A DNA stretch of 24,630 nucleotides from a virus: positions 1 to 24,630 of the IMG/VR virus record IMGVR_UViG_3300037225_000302. One strand, given 5' to 3'. A program made the position numbers and the translations under genes. Position 1 is the first letter of the stretch, and every line of letters starts with the position of its first letter. The notes below the pieces were generated by a model that saw nothing but the letters and a program-made list of their open reading frames with translations, was not told the DNA's origin and did no database searches. Below, one piece after another: positions 1,647 through 21,807 of this stretch.

Positions 1647-2306
1647 ATGGAAAATTTGAAAGACTATTCTGATTTGCAGTTAATTATGAATTATCAAGAT
1701 TCAAAAGGTGAAAAGTTTTTTAATGAATTATTTAGACGATTTAATAAAATTATTTATTTTTATGCTTTTAACGAGCATAAATGTGTAAACAAATCTGGTA
1801 TGTGTACTATAGAAGATATTAGGCAAGAATATATTTTACAATTTTTAGAATTATTAGCAAAAGTAAATAGAAACAAAGTTAAAGATTGGAATAAATTTAA
1901 TTTTGTTGGAATGATTTTTAATAGATTTAATGCTTATTCAACAGTTATTAGAAATAAGTATTTTGAAAAATTAGATATAATAGATGATATGTCTTTTGAA
2001 GCTATGAGTGATGAAAATTATCAAAATCTTTATTATTATAAAATAAGTAAGATGTATAACATGCCAAATTTAATAAATAATATGAAAAATGAAAGTAATA
2101 AAGTATACTCAAAAATAGAATTTGATTGTGATATGGATAAGTTTATAGAAAAACAAAATCCATTTGAAAGACGAATATTAAAATATATTAGAAAACAGTA
2201 TACTTCAGATGAAATATCACATAAAGTAAAAACACCAAAAGGTAAGGTAAATAAAATTAGATTTCATTTAAGAAAGAAATTTGAACAGCATTTATCTTGC
2301 GCATAA
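1647..2306 (+). CDS. Probable phage RNA polymerase sigma factor (sigma-70-like, late)
   Basis: A 219-residue protein with the layout of a small sigma-70-family factor. An N-terminal helical part (about residues 8-70: YSDLQLIMNYQ, FFNELFRRFNKIIYFYAF, IEDIRQEYILQFLELLAKV) resembles region 2, including the acidic D-x-x-QE element typical of core-binding/-10 regions. A C-terminal part (about 172-214: FERRILKYIRKQYTSDEISHK, then TPKGKVNKIRFHLRKKF) reads as the region 4 helix-turn-helix. The linker is long and not conserved to my eye. The ribosome binding site is AAAAGGAG, 10 bases from the ATG. It is the last gene before the first terminator and the first late-type promoter motif, and that motif then recurs throughout the structural genes. 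Inference: it directs RNA polymerase to the TACTAATAAWTA promoters, as gp55 does in T4. It could instead be a sigma-like regulator with another target. Confidence 0.7.
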   Translation: MENLKDYSDLQLIMNYQDSKGEKFFNELFRRFNKIIYFYAFNEHKCVNKSGMCTIEDIRQEYILQFLELLAKVNRNKVKDWNKFNFVGMIFNRFNAYSTVIRNKYFEKLDIIDDMSFEAMSDENYQNLYYYKISKMYNMPNLINNMKNESNKVYSKIEFDCDMDKFIEKQNPFERRILKYIRKQYTSDEISHKVKTPKGKVNKIRFHLRKKFEQHLSCA

Positions 2307-4427: not shown

Positions 4428-4685
4428 ATGAAAGAATTTTTTAAGAATGTATTTTCTAAAATTAAAGGTTGGGGTGTAGTTATTATTGCTATAATAGCAG
4501 TATTAGTTATAATAATACCTTATTTTGTAGCTTATTATTATATGAGAAAAGCAAATAAGATAATTACTATTTATCCTGAATTTAGTATTAGAGAAATTAA
4601 GAATCAGAATGAAATAGATATGAATGCTCTTGCTGGTGGTTTAAGAATAGGGCAAGAAATTGTTAAAAAATTAAAAGGTAATTAA
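4428..4685 (+). CDS. Small membrane protein (85 aa)
   Basis: One strong transmembrane helix (about residues 15-38, GVVIIAIIAVLVIIIPYFVAYYY) follows a basic amphipathic N-terminus (MKEFFKNVFSKIKGW). It is followed by a basic RKANK stretch and a soluble C-terminal tail of about 45 residues. The positive charges on both sides make the topology ambiguous. The ribosome binding site is GAGG, just upstream. First gene of a short late unit (4428-6114) driven by the motif at 4395. The family is unknown; a lysis or host-envelope role is possible but not shown. Confidence 0.7.
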   Translation: MKEFFKNVFSKIKGWGVVIIAIIAVLVIIIPYFVAYYYMRKANKIITIYPEFSIREIKNQNEIDMNALAGGLRIGQEIVKKLKGN

Positions 4686-8593: not shown

Positions 8594-8609
8594 TATTACT
8601 AATAATTAT
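8594..8609 (+). promoter_or_regulatory. Late-promoter-like motif abutting IS607 tnpA
   Basis: TATTACTAATAATTAT; the tnpA ATG (8608) begins inside the motif. It probably belongs to the phage, as the former promoter of the fibre gene cluster now starting at 10518, with the insertion sequence placed just downstream. Confidence 0.55.
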
Positions 8610-9213
8610 GAATAAAAGGTATAAAATAACAGATGTAGCTACTCAATTAGGAGTTTCTAGAGCTACATTATATAATTGGAGAAAATCTGGTATAATAGAG
8701 TTTGAAAAGAGTGAAAGTGGAGGCTTAAACTTTATATCAGAAAATACATATAATAAACTTTTAAATATAGAAAAAGAAACTTTAGAAGAAAAAGTTATAA
8801 TTTATTGTAGAGTGTCTTCTACTGTGAATAAAAAAAATTTATATACACAAAAAGAAAGACTTATAAATTATTGTAATGCTAAGGGATATCAGATATATAA
8901 GATTATAGAAGAATTTGGCTCAGGGATAAATGATAAAAGACCTAAGTTACAAAAATTATTAGAAGAGCAAGATTTTACTAAAATTGTTGTTGAACATAAA
9001 GATAGGTTAAGTAGATTAGGTTTTAACTATTTAGAAGTTTTATTAAATAAGAGTAATAAAAAGATAGAAGTTGTTAATTCTGTAGATACTGATGAAGAAG
9101 ATATAATTCAAGATTTTGTTTCAATTATAACTAGTTATTGTGCAAGAATTTATGGTAAAAGAAGAAGTAAAAGAAAAACTGAAAAATTAATTAAAGAATT
9201 AAAAGATGAATAA
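8608..9213 (+). CDS. tnpA: IS607-family transposase TnpA (serine recombinase)
   Basis: 201 residues, normal for IS607 TnpA. The N-terminal MerR-like helix-turn-helix (about 5-30, ITDVATQLGVSRATLYNWRK) would bind the element ends. The resolvase-type catalytic domain starts at about 63 with VIIYCRVSS, where S70 is the likely nucleophile, followed by EFGSGINDKRP, VEHKDRLSRLGFNYLE and the C-terminal Arg-rich helix (ARIYGKRRSKRK). All expected blocks are present, so it looks active. There is no Shine-Dalgarno before ATG 8608, which abuts a phage promoter motif, so expression may be weak or leaderless. The 3' end overlaps tnpB by 8 bases (ATGAATAA). Confidence 0.93.
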   Translation: MNKRYKITDVATQLGVSRATLYNWRKSGIIEFEKSESGGLNFISENTYNKLLNIEKETLEEKVIIYCRVSSTVNKKNLYTQKERLINYCNAKGYQIYKIIEEFGSGINDKRPKLQKLLEEQDFTKIVVEHKDRLSRLGFNYLEVLLNKSNKKIEVVNSVDTDEEDIIQDFVSIITSYCARIYGKRRSKRKTEKLIKELKDE

Positions 9214-10472
9214 AGCTTATAGAATAAAATTATATCCTGCAGAAAAGCAAAAAGAACTTATAGATAAGACCATAGGGTGTGCTAGATTCATCTACAATCA
9301 GATGTTAGCTGAAAGAATTAAAGTTTATGAGGAATTAAAAGATGATAAGAAAAAATTATATTCCTATAGATATAAGACTGAAAAAGACTACAAAAAAGAA
9401 TTTGACTTTTTAGAAGAAGTTAGTTCTTATGCCTTACAACAAAGTAGAATAGATTTAAATACTGCATATAAGAATTTTTACAAAAGAATTAAAAATAAAG
9501 CAAAACAAGTTGGATTCCCTAGGTTTAAAACAAAAAAATTATCAAAAAATTCATTTAGAATTTGTCAAACTAGTTCAAATATTCTTTTAATTAAAGATAA
9601 TAAAATTAAGGTTTCTAAATATGGGTTTATAAAATTTAGGGGATTAAATAAAGATTTTCAAGGAGTTATAAAATCAATAACTATTGAAAAAAGAAAAGAT
9701 GGTAATTACTTTGCTTCAATACTAGTTGAGAGGAACAAAATTAAAAAAGAAAGAAAATCAAATAATATTTTAGGAATAGATTTTAGGAATAGATTTAGGT
9801 TTAAAAGAGTTTGTTACTTGTTCTAATGGAGATATAATAAATGGAATTAAAAATAAATTGTATGAAATAGAAAAGAAAATCATTAGGCAACAAAAACATT
9901 TAAGTAGAAAAAACGAAGTTAATAAAAAATTAGGAATTAAAGATTCAAAAAGAAAAGAAAAGTGTAGAATAAAATTAGCAAAATTGTTTCAGTATAAAAA
10001 AGACTATCAAAATCATTTCTTTTGGCATTTAGCAAACAAACTTTGTAGTGAAAGTCAAGCTATAGGAATTGAAACTCTAAATGTTTCAGGAATGATTAAA
10101 AACCATAAATTAGCACATTCTATAAGTTATTCAAGTTGGTCTGATTTTATAATAAAATTAGAACAAAAGGCTATAGATTATGATACTAAAATTGTTAAAG
10201 TGGATAGGTGGTTTCCTAGTAGTAAACTTTGTTCTAAATGTGGTCAACTTAAAAAAGATTTAACTCTGGTAGATAGAGTATATAGATGTGATTGTAGCTT
10301 AGAAATGGATAGAGATTTAAATGCAGCAATTAATTTGCAAAATTATGTTTTAAAAAATTTATCGTTGGAGTACAGCGATTACAGACATGGAGAAGATGTA
10401 AGACCTACTGAGATTATTTATAATTCTAATGGGCAATTTTCTGAGAAGTGTTTATTTGAGAAAAGTAAATGA
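9206..10472 (+). pseudogene. tnpB: tnpB (RNA-guided nuclease family) broken by a 13-bp duplication
   Basis: Two frames together make one TnpB of about 418 residues. The first part begins MNKAYRIKLYPAEKQKELID and runs to the RuvC-I motif NNILGID. A tandem 13-bp duplication (9768-9793) then shifts the frame and translation stops at 9826. Removing one copy restores GIDLGLKEFVTCS and joins to the second frame. That frame carries RuvC-II (AIGIETLNVSGM), the zinc knuckle (CSKCG ... CDC) and RuvC-III (EMDRDLNAAINLQ). The catalytic residues D, E and D are otherwise kept and no other lesion is visible, so the break looks recent. TnpB of this family acts as an RNA-guided DNA nuclease using a guide from the element's right end. 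This copy would be inactive unless frameshifting rescues it. Confidence 0.9.
9768..9793 (+). repeat. 13-bp tandem duplication in tnpB
   Basis: TTTTAGGAATAGA occurs at 9768-9780 and again at 9781-9793 with no base between. It inserts +13 into the codons for the RuvC-I Asp motif. Confidence 0.97.
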
Positions 10473-16907: not shown

Positions 16908-18026
16908 ATGGTTAAAGAAAAGCAATGTAAATATTGTGGTACTAAAGAAAACTTAATAGAAAGAACCATCAAAGGTCAATTTCAAATAGTAGGTGTTTGC
17001 AAACAATGTTGGTATGAAAATAGACATAATAATTGGATAAATAAAACAGAAGAAGAAAGGAAAACAATTAAAAATAATATAGCTAATGGTACTAAAATAG
17101 CTATGGAAAATTTATCTGAAGACAAGAAAAAAGAAATGGTTAAAAATCATAATGATTCTTGGTTTTCTAGACCTGAAGAAGAAAGAAATGAAATAGCATC
17201 TAAAAGAGGAGAAGCAATAAGTAATTCACCAAAGAATGAAGAAAGATGTAGAAAAATAGGAGATTATTGGATAAACGCTTCTGATGAAATTATAGATAAT
17301 AGAACAGAAAAAGCTCGTAAAACATTAGATAGTAGAACTGATGAAGAAAAAGAATATTATAGGAAAAGAAAAAGTGAAGCAAATTTTAAATCTTGGAAAG
17401 AGAATAAGGAACAAAGATTAAATAAATATAGAAAAACTTGGGATTTAAAAAGTAAAGAAGAAAAAGAAAATATAATATATAAAAGGCTGAGTGGTTGGAG
17501 AAAATTTAGTAAAGAAATTTATCCTAATATGAATATTGAAGAAAAATATGAATTTAACAAACCTAAAATTGAAAAATGGAAAAATACAAGATCTAATTGG
17601 ACAGTAAGACAAAGACAATCAAATTCTAATAAAATAAGAGAAACTATTTTAATAAGACTACAGTCTAACAAAAAATTTCAATCGAAAGTTGAAAGAAGAT
17701 GCTTAGAATATATAAAAATTAATATTGATGAAAATATAAATTATCAAAAAAGATATAATAATTGGATGATAGATTTTTATTCTCCTAAATTAGATTTATA
17801 TATTCAAATGGATGGAGTTTATTGGCATGGATTATTATCAACAGATGAAGAATATAGTAAATCTAAATGTGGATTAGCTATATTAAAAACAAAAGAAAAA
17901 GATAAATTGCAAAATCAAATAATTCCAAATTTAATTAGAATTACTGATGAAGAATTCAATAAAGATCCTTTCTTATTAGAAGAAAAGATTACTCAATTTT
18001 TTAATACCAATTTTACTAATAATTAA
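16908..18026 (+). CDS. Free-standing homing endonuclease, EDxHD (Vsr-like) type (372 aa)
   Basis: A zinc knuckle opens the protein (C7-x2-C10 ... C31-x2-C34). A long, charged, Trp-containing helical region of DNA-binding repeats follows (DSWFSRPEEERNEIA, DYWINASDEIIDNR, KTWDLKSKEEKENI), which probably reads a long target. The C-terminal third has the catalytic series E (SKVERRCLEY), D (WMIDFYSPKLDLYIQMDG), H (VYWHGL) and D (KEKDKLQNQIIPNLIRI), matching the EDxHD/Vsr-fold homing nucleases such as I-Bth0305I. No intron signature is seen, so it appears free-standing between the neck-like gene and the sheath gene. Its last codons and stop (ACT AAT AAT TAA) form the promoter motif for the sheath gene. 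Ribosome binding site is weak. Confidence 0.85.
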   Translation: MVKEKQCKYCGTKENLIERTIKGQFQIVGVCKQCWYENRHNNWINKTEEERKTIKNNIANGTKIAMENLSEDKKKEMVKNHNDSWFSRPEEERNEIASKRGEAISNSPKNEERCRKIGDYWINASDEIIDNRTEKARKTLDSRTDEEKEYYRKRKSEANFKSWKENKEQRLNKYRKTWDLKSKEEKENIIYKRLSGWRKFSKEIYPNMNIEEKYEFNKPKIEKWKNTRSNWTVRQRQSNSNKIRETILIRLQSNKKFQSKVERRCLEYIKINIDENINYQKRYNNWMIDFYSPKLDLYIQMDGVYWHGLLSTDEEYSKSKCGLAILKTKEKDKLQNQIIPNLIRITDEEFNKDPFLLEEKITQFFNTNFTNN

Positions 18027-19643: not shown

Positions 19644-19669
19644 TTTAAAAATTAAAATAAATTTTATTT

Positions 19670-19705
19670 AAAAAGAGGGAAAATAAAATATCCCTCTTTT
19701 TTTAT
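19670..19705 (+). terminator. Rho-independent terminator after the sheath gene
   Basis: AAAAAGAGGGA pairs perfectly with TCCCTCTTTTT (11 bp, 10-base A/T loop), followed by further T's. The A and T flanks make it potentially bidirectional. The next promoter motif begins immediately after it. Confidence 0.93.
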
Positions 19706-19726
19706 CTTTTACTAATAAATATATAG
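19706..19726 (+). promoter_or_regulatory. Late-promoter-like motif heading a gene-poor leader
   Basis: CTTTTACTAATAAATATATA, a near-ideal copy. No substantial gene follows for 300 bases, so it should produce a leader or small RNA across 19730-20027. Confidence 0.65.
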
Positions 19727-19757
19727 AGAGACAAGAGCTAGCTACCCCTTTCTGAAA

Positions 19758-19807
19758 CTTTGATGAGTAAGAATTACCTCTAAATTTTTTAACCTATCAA
19801 AGAGGTA
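19758..19807 (+). promoter_or_regulatory. Possible bistable RNA element controlling a ribosome binding site
   Basis: Two perfect 7-bp helices compete. CTTTGAT (19758-19764) can pair with ATCAAAG (19796-19802), and TACCTCT (19775-19781) can pair with AGAGGTA (19801-19807). The second helix would hide the AGAGG ribosome binding site of the small frame at 19812. The two 3' arms overlap by two bases. A six-codon frame (ATG 19763, MSKNYL) ends within the anti-binding-site arm, but it has no clear ribosome binding site. Seen directly: the complementarity. Inference: regulation. Confidence 0.35.
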
Positions 19808-19811
19808 TATT

Positions 19812-19913
19812 ATGTATTCTAGAGAAGAATGTAGAATTACCCATATTTGTAAGGCTATATATTATCATTACATACATATTTTTTATTCACTGCATCATTC
19901 TGAAACATACTGA
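19812..19913 (+). CDS. Possible 33-residue peptide in the sheath-tube intergenic region
   Basis: ATG 19812 to TGA 19913 with AGAGG six bases upstream. The product (MYSREECRITHICKAIYYHY and so on) is rich in His, Tyr and Ile with two Cys and does not look like a conserved domain. It is the only frame with a decent start in the 384-base stretch 19644-20027. The rest of that stretch holds a terminator, two promoter motifs, the helices at 19758-19807 and AT-rich sequence. A TTCTGAAAC string occurs at 19750 and again near 19899. It may be a leader peptide or a remnant. Confidence 0.25.
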   Translation: MYSREECRITHICKAIYYHYIHIFYSLHHSETY

Positions 19914-19974
19914 GGTCAATCTATTATATAATTATTGATATATCATATAAAAATTTTATTTGAATTATTAGAAA

Positions 19975-19995
19975 AAATTTTACTAATAAATAAAG
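19975..19995 (+). promoter_or_regulatory. Late-promoter-like motif for the tube gene
   Basis: AAATTTTACTAATAAATAAA, core C 45 bases before the tube ATG at 20028. GAGG is at 20014-20017. Confidence 0.68.
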
Positions 19996-20027
19996 AATAC
20001 GAAATTAATAAATGAGGTAAAAATATA

Positions 20028-21271: not shown

Positions 21272-21299
21272 TTAAAAATAGTACTAAAATATCAAGAAT

Positions 21300-21416
21300 T
21301 TAAAAAATAGTATAATAAATAATTTTATTTTTTATTATTCTTGTCTGAAAAACTCTTTCAGGAAATTCTTTTAAAAAATCTTGAGTAGGATAATCTACTC
21401 TTATATTTTCGGTCAC
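21300..21416 (-). CDS. Overlooked minus-strand small gene candidate (38 aa)
   Basis: On the minus strand, GTG at 21416 (or TTG at 21419) opens a 38-codon frame ending at TAA 21302-21300. It begins VTENIRVDYPTQDFLKEFPE and ends with a basic, Ile/Tyr-rich stretch. The composition looks protein-like rather than random. AGATAGG lies just upstream, and a perfect copy of the late-promoter motif lies upstream on the same strand with its core C 26 bases before the GTG. That matches the 26-29 base spacing at plus-strand genes. An in-frame TAG bounds it upstream. The lack of an ATG is the main weakness. It would be the only minus-strand gene in the window. Confidence 0.4.
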   Translation of the reverse strand: MTENIRVDYPTQDFLKEFPERVFQTRIIKNKIIYYTIF

Positions 21417-21430
21417 CAAACCTATCTACT

Positions 21431-21449
21431 GATAATTATTAGTAAAAAT
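21431..21449 (-). promoter_or_regulatory. Minus-strand late-promoter-like motif
   Basis: On the minus strand reads ATTTTTACTAATAATTATC, a full match to the family. It faces leftwards into the intergenic region and lies beside the plus-strand copy at 21455, making a divergent pair. Confidence 0.6.
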
Positions 21450-21454
21450 TTATA

Positions 21455-21474
21455 ACTTTTACTAATAAATAAAG
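21455..21474 (+). promoter_or_regulatory. Late-promoter-like motif, distal copy
   Basis: ACTTTTACTAATAAATAAAG, core C 29 bases before the ATG at 21491. The following AAAGGA could serve as a ribosome binding site, with a long spacer. Confidence 0.65.
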
Positions 21475-21476
21475 GA

Positions 21477-21490
21477 TTATACTAATAAAT
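21477..21490 (+). promoter_or_regulatory. Late-promoter-like motif, proximal copy abutting a start codon
   Basis: TTATACTAATAAAT followed directly by ATG 21491. It repeats the motif 20 bases downstream of the previous copy, so the two may be a local duplication. Confidence 0.5.
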
Positions 21491-21781
21491 ATGAAGTTAG
21501 ACAATCATTGCAAAGAGTGTATAAAAGAATTAGGTAAACCATTTAAAGAAGTACATCAGTGGTTAGATGCCTTTGCTGGTACTAAAGAATTTGGCATGAG
21601 GCATAGAAAGAAAAGACATCATCAAAATGGTTTGGTTCAAATTCAAGAACTGTTTGGTGAAGAAGCTGTATATGCAGGTCAATTGCATATAATCTCTGAT
21701 TTAAAAGAAGAAGGTTGGAATAAAGAAAAAGATCACTTCCCATTAAATGAAATAGAATATGTCAAAATGGGATTATTTTAA
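21491..21781 (+). CDS. Conserved His-rich phage protein (96 aa; DUF6915-like)
   Basis: The sequence MKLDNHCKECIKELGKPFKE, VHQWLDAFAG, GMRHRKKRHHQNG, LHIISDLKEEGW and EIEYVKMGLF is a pattern I recognise from small conserved proteins found in many phages and bacteria (recalled as DUF6915, not checked). The His and Cys residues (HCKEC, HR..RHH) could bind metal. The function is unknown. It is preceded by two promoter motifs, and the ATG abuts the second. It lies between tube and assembly genes. Confidence 0.7.
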   Translation: MKLDNHCKECIKELGKPFKEVHQWLDAFAGTKEFGMRHRKKRHHQNGLVQIQELFGEEAVYAGQLHIISDLKEEGWNKEKDHFPLNEIEYVKMGLF

Positions 21782-21807
21782 CAACAATTAAACAGGAGTG
21801 TAAATAG

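Follow-up and report, generated by a model that had tools for sequence, protein, structure and literature searches.

Genes in the window, the 24,630-nt stretch of DNA analyzed here (positions 1–24,630 of IMG/VR virus record IMGVR_UViG_3300037225_000302, one strand), all run in one direction, apart from a GTG-started frame of 38 codons on the minus strand that lies beside the second tube-like tail gene and behind a copy of a motif that also precedes plus-strand genes. This locus raises the question of whether the motif drives a small gene on the otherwise empty strand, or whether frame and motif are better viewed as the relic of a longer gene, an idle promoter or the source of an antisense RNA. 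We regard a divergent accessory cassette, in which the minus-strand motif drives a small, real 38-codon gene, as the best reading of the sequence and as moderately probable. The features concerned are listed in Table 1.

Table 1. Features of the locus between the second tube-like gene and the 400-aa gene (positions in the window;., no strand assigned).
Feature	Position	Strand	Remarks
Stretch between the second tube-like gene and the 400-aa gene, accessory insertion	21272..21807	.	536 bp; 23–77 nt instead in relatives
AT-rich hairpin between two converging genes	21293..21343	.	Candidate 3′ end for both
GTG-started 38-codon frame	21300..21416	-	VTENIRVDYPTQDFLKEFPERVFQTRIIKNKIIYYTIF, stop included
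Weak terminator-like stem inside the minus frame	21383..21400	.	Both strands
AGATAGG, weak ribosome-binding-site candidate and predicted transcript 5′ end	21421..21427	-	5′ end predicted from T4 geometry (PMC1524935)
Late-promoter-like motif, pointing left	21431..21449	-	Full motif AATTTTTACTAATAATTAT, core 12-mer TACTAATAATTA at 21444–21433
Inverted repeat, minus and plus motifs back to back	21433..21471	.	39 bp, 82% identical to its own reverse complement
Late-promoter-like motif of the DUF6915 gene	21458..21471	+	TAC 31 nt before ATG
Third motif copy	21480..21491	+	Runs into the ATG of the DUF6915 gene
DUF6915 gene, other half of the putative divergent cassette	21491..21781	+	96 aa

Related contigs were retrieved via the sheath and second tube-like proteins, and further motif-bearing contigs via a pattern composed of the motif, a ribosome-binding site and ATG. 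This pattern selects short spacings by design; the spacings of the window genes and the strand count given below were not so selected. The set of ten contigs includes near-copies (L026/L027 and L032/L037), and the independent cases within it are therefore fewer than ten.

The full motif copy that the initial annotation had placed on the minus strand was confirmed, with its 12-mer core exact, and this was the sole minus-strand copy among the 11 sites in the window with at most one mismatch. The 14-mer TTTACTAATAATTA reads on the minus strand from 21446 to 21433, and six occurrences of the 14-mer TTTACTAATAAWTA were counted in the window, among them the minus copy, versus 0.02 expected from shuffled sequence. 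Scored with a weight matrix built from related contigs only, the minus copy reached 16.2 bits, which was within the group of plus copies (16.0–21.0 bits) and was attained 0.1 times per window by column-permuted matrices. The second-best minus site in the window scored 12.5 bits, and the plus copy at 21480 that overlaps a start codon scored 9.6 bits, outside the plus group. By both the 14-mer count and the weight matrix, the minus copy matched the motif of the group beyond chance. The ten contigs held 31 copies of TTACTAATAA. A simple majority rule marks three as off-strand; two of these three, in the mixed contig L032, actually precede tail genes and share the strand of those genes. The sole truly off-strand copy among the ten contigs was the minus copy of the window, and a copy on an empty strand is therefore not common background.

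In this phage group the motif appears to be a genuine late-promoter-like element. T4-type late promoters have the sequence TATAAATA, with CTAAATA in Aeh1 (PMC1524935) and NATAAATA in S-PM2 (PMC2984593). Like these, the window motif is short and AT-rich and lies immediately ahead of late structural genes, leaving a short leader, and the AATAAATA within it matches TATAAATA at 7 of 8 positions. Unlike them, it has a longer invariant core, TACTAATAA, preceded by a T-rich stretch. A literature search for TACTAATAAATA did not find the motif in a phage context. A gene elsewhere in the window (1647–2306) encodes a protein of 219 aa; on visual inspection the protein looks like a small sigma factor with a helix-turn-helix at its C-terminus, which makes it a candidate reader of the motif. 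It had no Pfam match, and a PDB search gave only weak winged-helix matches to its C-terminus.

The minus motif lies at a short fixed distance from a start codon on its own strand, that of the putative gene, with 28 nt from TAC to GTG compared with 29, 31, 29 and 31 nt for the plus-strand genes at 4428, 13629, 20642 and 21491. The initial annotation had described the spacing from the core C as equal to that of plus-strand genes; the 26 nt to the GTG were as described, and the corresponding distances of the plus-strand genes are 27–29 nt, close rather than equal. Elsewhere the distance from TAC to start was 25–30 nt for many genes and some copies were more distant, up to 57 nt. It was, for example, 25–26 nt in L028 (L028 and L008 being one contig) and 27 nt in each of L026, L030 and L040, and the copy ahead of the second tube-like gene in L006 stood at 28 nt. 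Both the frame and the AGATAGG ahead of it are present as first described. The latter is a poor Shine-Dalgarno sequence, offering only AGG, 4 nt from the GTG, whereas other genes have GAGG.

The minus motif forms one half of the inverted repeat, the other half being the plus motif at 21460. The half-sites are not identical, the minus one being an AATTA variant and the plus one AAATA. An IMG/VR search for other back-to-back motif pairs found none. Within the window, the plus motif at 19981 has a weaker inverted minus partner (19973, score 12.5; region 19955–19992), with no long frame behind it.

The codon statistics of the frame match those of the phage's own genes. G+C by codon position was 0.30/0.24/0.05 in the frame versus 0.38/0.35/0.12 in phage genes, and the purine content was 0.68/0.49/0.46 versus 0.67/0.50/0.49. 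Wrong-frame ORFs scored as high in 1 of 55 cases in the window and in 6 of 401 when ten related or motif-bearing contigs were included with it. Frames of at least 38 codons arose in 0.8% of dinucleotide shuffles of the local stretch, and none of 168 such frames scored as high. These comparisons agree with the earlier impression that the peptide looks coding, and the codon score, under normal approximations, is about 14:1 for coding over chance. All of these figures are weakened somewhat because the frame had been chosen for looking coding. Only the first 26 codons carried the gene-like signal, at 0.42 bits per codon; the final 12, which consist almost only of A and T, scored −1.18. The AlphaFold model of the 38-aa peptide alone, a single helix over residues 13–37, had a pLDDT of 66 and was not informative.

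Searches with the peptide identified no relative. There was no homologue by tblastn against phages with either the full 38 aa or the first 26 aa, and against plasmids the first 26 aa gave no homologue, with one chance match at E 3. Degenerate DNA patterns of the peptide matched nothing in IMG/VR and one Methanobrevibacter stretch among genome contigs. When the peptide was compared with 23 contigs, related or motif-bearing, over their entire records, the best match (E 0.04) was inside a 1739-codon open frame and was taken as chance. Pfam and PHROGs had no match to the peptide, and Rfam gave nothing at gathering score.

Comparison with the relatives indicated that the locus is an insertion. Only 23–77 nt separate the second tube-like gene from the 400-aa gene that comes after it in L006, L009, L026, L032, L037 and L047, and the junction in some of these contigs has a variant of the plus-strand motif. 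The insertion, which holds the minus frame, the inverted repeat, the third motif and the DUF6915 gene, is missing from all relatives covering the junction and stands between genes that are adjacent in them. L010 shares the gene order of these relatives, although its middle gene has no detectable similarity to that of the window. Searches with the DUF6915 protein gave no match in phage records, in IMG/VR by patterns or in the contigs of the four closest relatives, and a literature search found none; the AlphaFold model of this protein, with a pLDDT of 46, was set aside. L010 also carries, between its sheath and first tube genes, an HNH/NUMOD3 homing-type endonuclease gene on the minus strand (L010:9152–10153), and opposite-strand insertions in the tail cluster therefore have precedent. 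The 536-bp layout is that of a putative divergent accessory cassette. The proposal of a minus-strand microgene with its own late motif was partly supported, on statistical grounds, by motif quality, strand rule, spacing and codon periodicity; conservation of the peptide and the minus motif in relatives was not found, because the relatives are without the whole insertion.

Based on these observations, we propose that this contractile-tailed phage acquired an accessory cassette, placed between two of its conserved tail genes, and that the cassette comprises two divergent genes, the DUF6915 gene on the plus strand and the 38-codon gene on the minus strand, with back-to-back late-promoter motifs between them. 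A phage-modified RNA polymerase would start leftward at about 21427, the leader would measure about 11 nt, and translation of the GTG frame would give a small, probably helical protein. Transcription would end near the AT-rich hairpin, tail to tail with the upstream tail gene. This hairpin had z-scores of −3.5 (plus strand) and −2.7 (minus strand); the promoter motifs of the cassette are clear and its terminators weak. The stem inside the frame has a T-rich tail on the minus strand and, if active leftward, would cut the transcript after about 50 nt, a stop that a translating ribosome could prevent. The 38-aa product would most likely be a dispensable late accessory protein. Against its being a gene are the lack of a homologue in the searches above, the weak ribosome-binding site, the AT-only last 12 codons, the stem inside the frame and the choice of the frame for its coding appearance; the motif, as part of the inverted repeat, could also have arisen as a by-product when the repeat formed.

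The frame may be the intact 5′ end of a once longer minus-strand gene brought in by the cassette, with the promoter and about the first 26 codons kept and AT-rich filler after them. Such a remnant would fit the loss of gene-like codons after codon 26 and the longer opposite-strand gene nearby in L010, but the searches revealed no homologue that is longer than the peptide, a phage protein of 38 aa can be viable, and the AT-only tail lies where a hairpin may have been kept to end the transcript; we consider it unlikely. Alternatively, the inverted promoter may be idle or its transcript untranslated. A local inverted duplication of the plus promoter would have made the symmetric 39-bp element, and the minus motif may fire leftward weakly or not at all, with any transcript stopping at 21383–21400 and the frame being one of chance. 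The symmetry of the repeat, the terminator-like stem with its T-rich tail and the weaker minus site beside the motif at 19981 are all consistent with this. However, chance frames of such length and gene-likeness are rare, the start is at the regular distance from the motif, and the half-sites are not identical copies, and an idle or untranslated promoter likewise seems improbable to us.

As an alternative, the initial annotation had suggested that the transcript is an RNA antisense to the 3′ end of the second tube-like gene; such a leftward transcript would pair with the message of that gene and lower its stability or translation. The orientation fits, and such an RNA is known in cyanophage S-PM2, where CfrI covers psbA and an endonuclease gene (PMC2984593). 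Like CfrI, the minus element belongs to a contractile-tailed phage and would be transcribed against the prevailing gene direction; unlike CfrI, it has a gene-like frame, and that frame overlaps no coding gene. A distance of 29 bp separates the end of the frame (21300) from the stop of the tube-like gene (21271), the AT-rich hairpin lies there, and overlap with the coding sequence would need read-through past this hairpin. In addition, relatives carry the same tube-like gene without any such element, and no known RNA family was matched. We therefore do not favor an antisense role and consider it very improbable. A single transcript that both encodes a late protein without relatives and tunes the tail gene, by pairing with its 3′ untranslated end, is also highly doubtful.

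Returning to the accessory cassette, small accessory phage genes that have a late promoter of their own are a known kind, and this putative example has no known relative. Like morons and other small accessory phage genes, the putative cassette consists of extra genes between conserved structural genes, missing in relatives and with their own promoter. Unlike morons, it has two divergent genes around back-to-back late promoters, and its predicted expression is late rather than lysogenic. If this reading is correct, small late genes missed by gene finders in uncultured phages could be recovered via the promoter motif of their own group, and the tail operon of this phage group would accept divergent accessory cassettes. 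The effect on general knowledge would be modest.

Several other regions of the window were noted in the course of these analyses. Between the sheath and first tube genes are 384 nt (19644–20027; 16 nt in L006) with a strong terminator and motifs at 19710 and 19981. A 33-codon frame there (19812–19913) has an AAGAGGT ribosome-binding site that can pair with an upstream TACCTC; it was not gene-like by codon statistics, and its leader folded no better than shuffles. At 8597–10472, the ATG of a serine-resolvase gene overlaps a copy of the motif, and after this gene comes a TnpB-like gene split into two frames (9206–9826 and 9858–10472) with HTH_OrfB_IS605 and Cas12f1-like TNB domains, and we interpret this as an IS607-like element inside the phage, its TnpB apparently broken or recoded. 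Just before the sheath gene is a 372-aa gene (16908–18026) that had no Pfam or PHROG match and by eye is homing-endonuclease-like, and a similar-looking 373-aa gene occupies the equivalent position in L006 (2276–3397).
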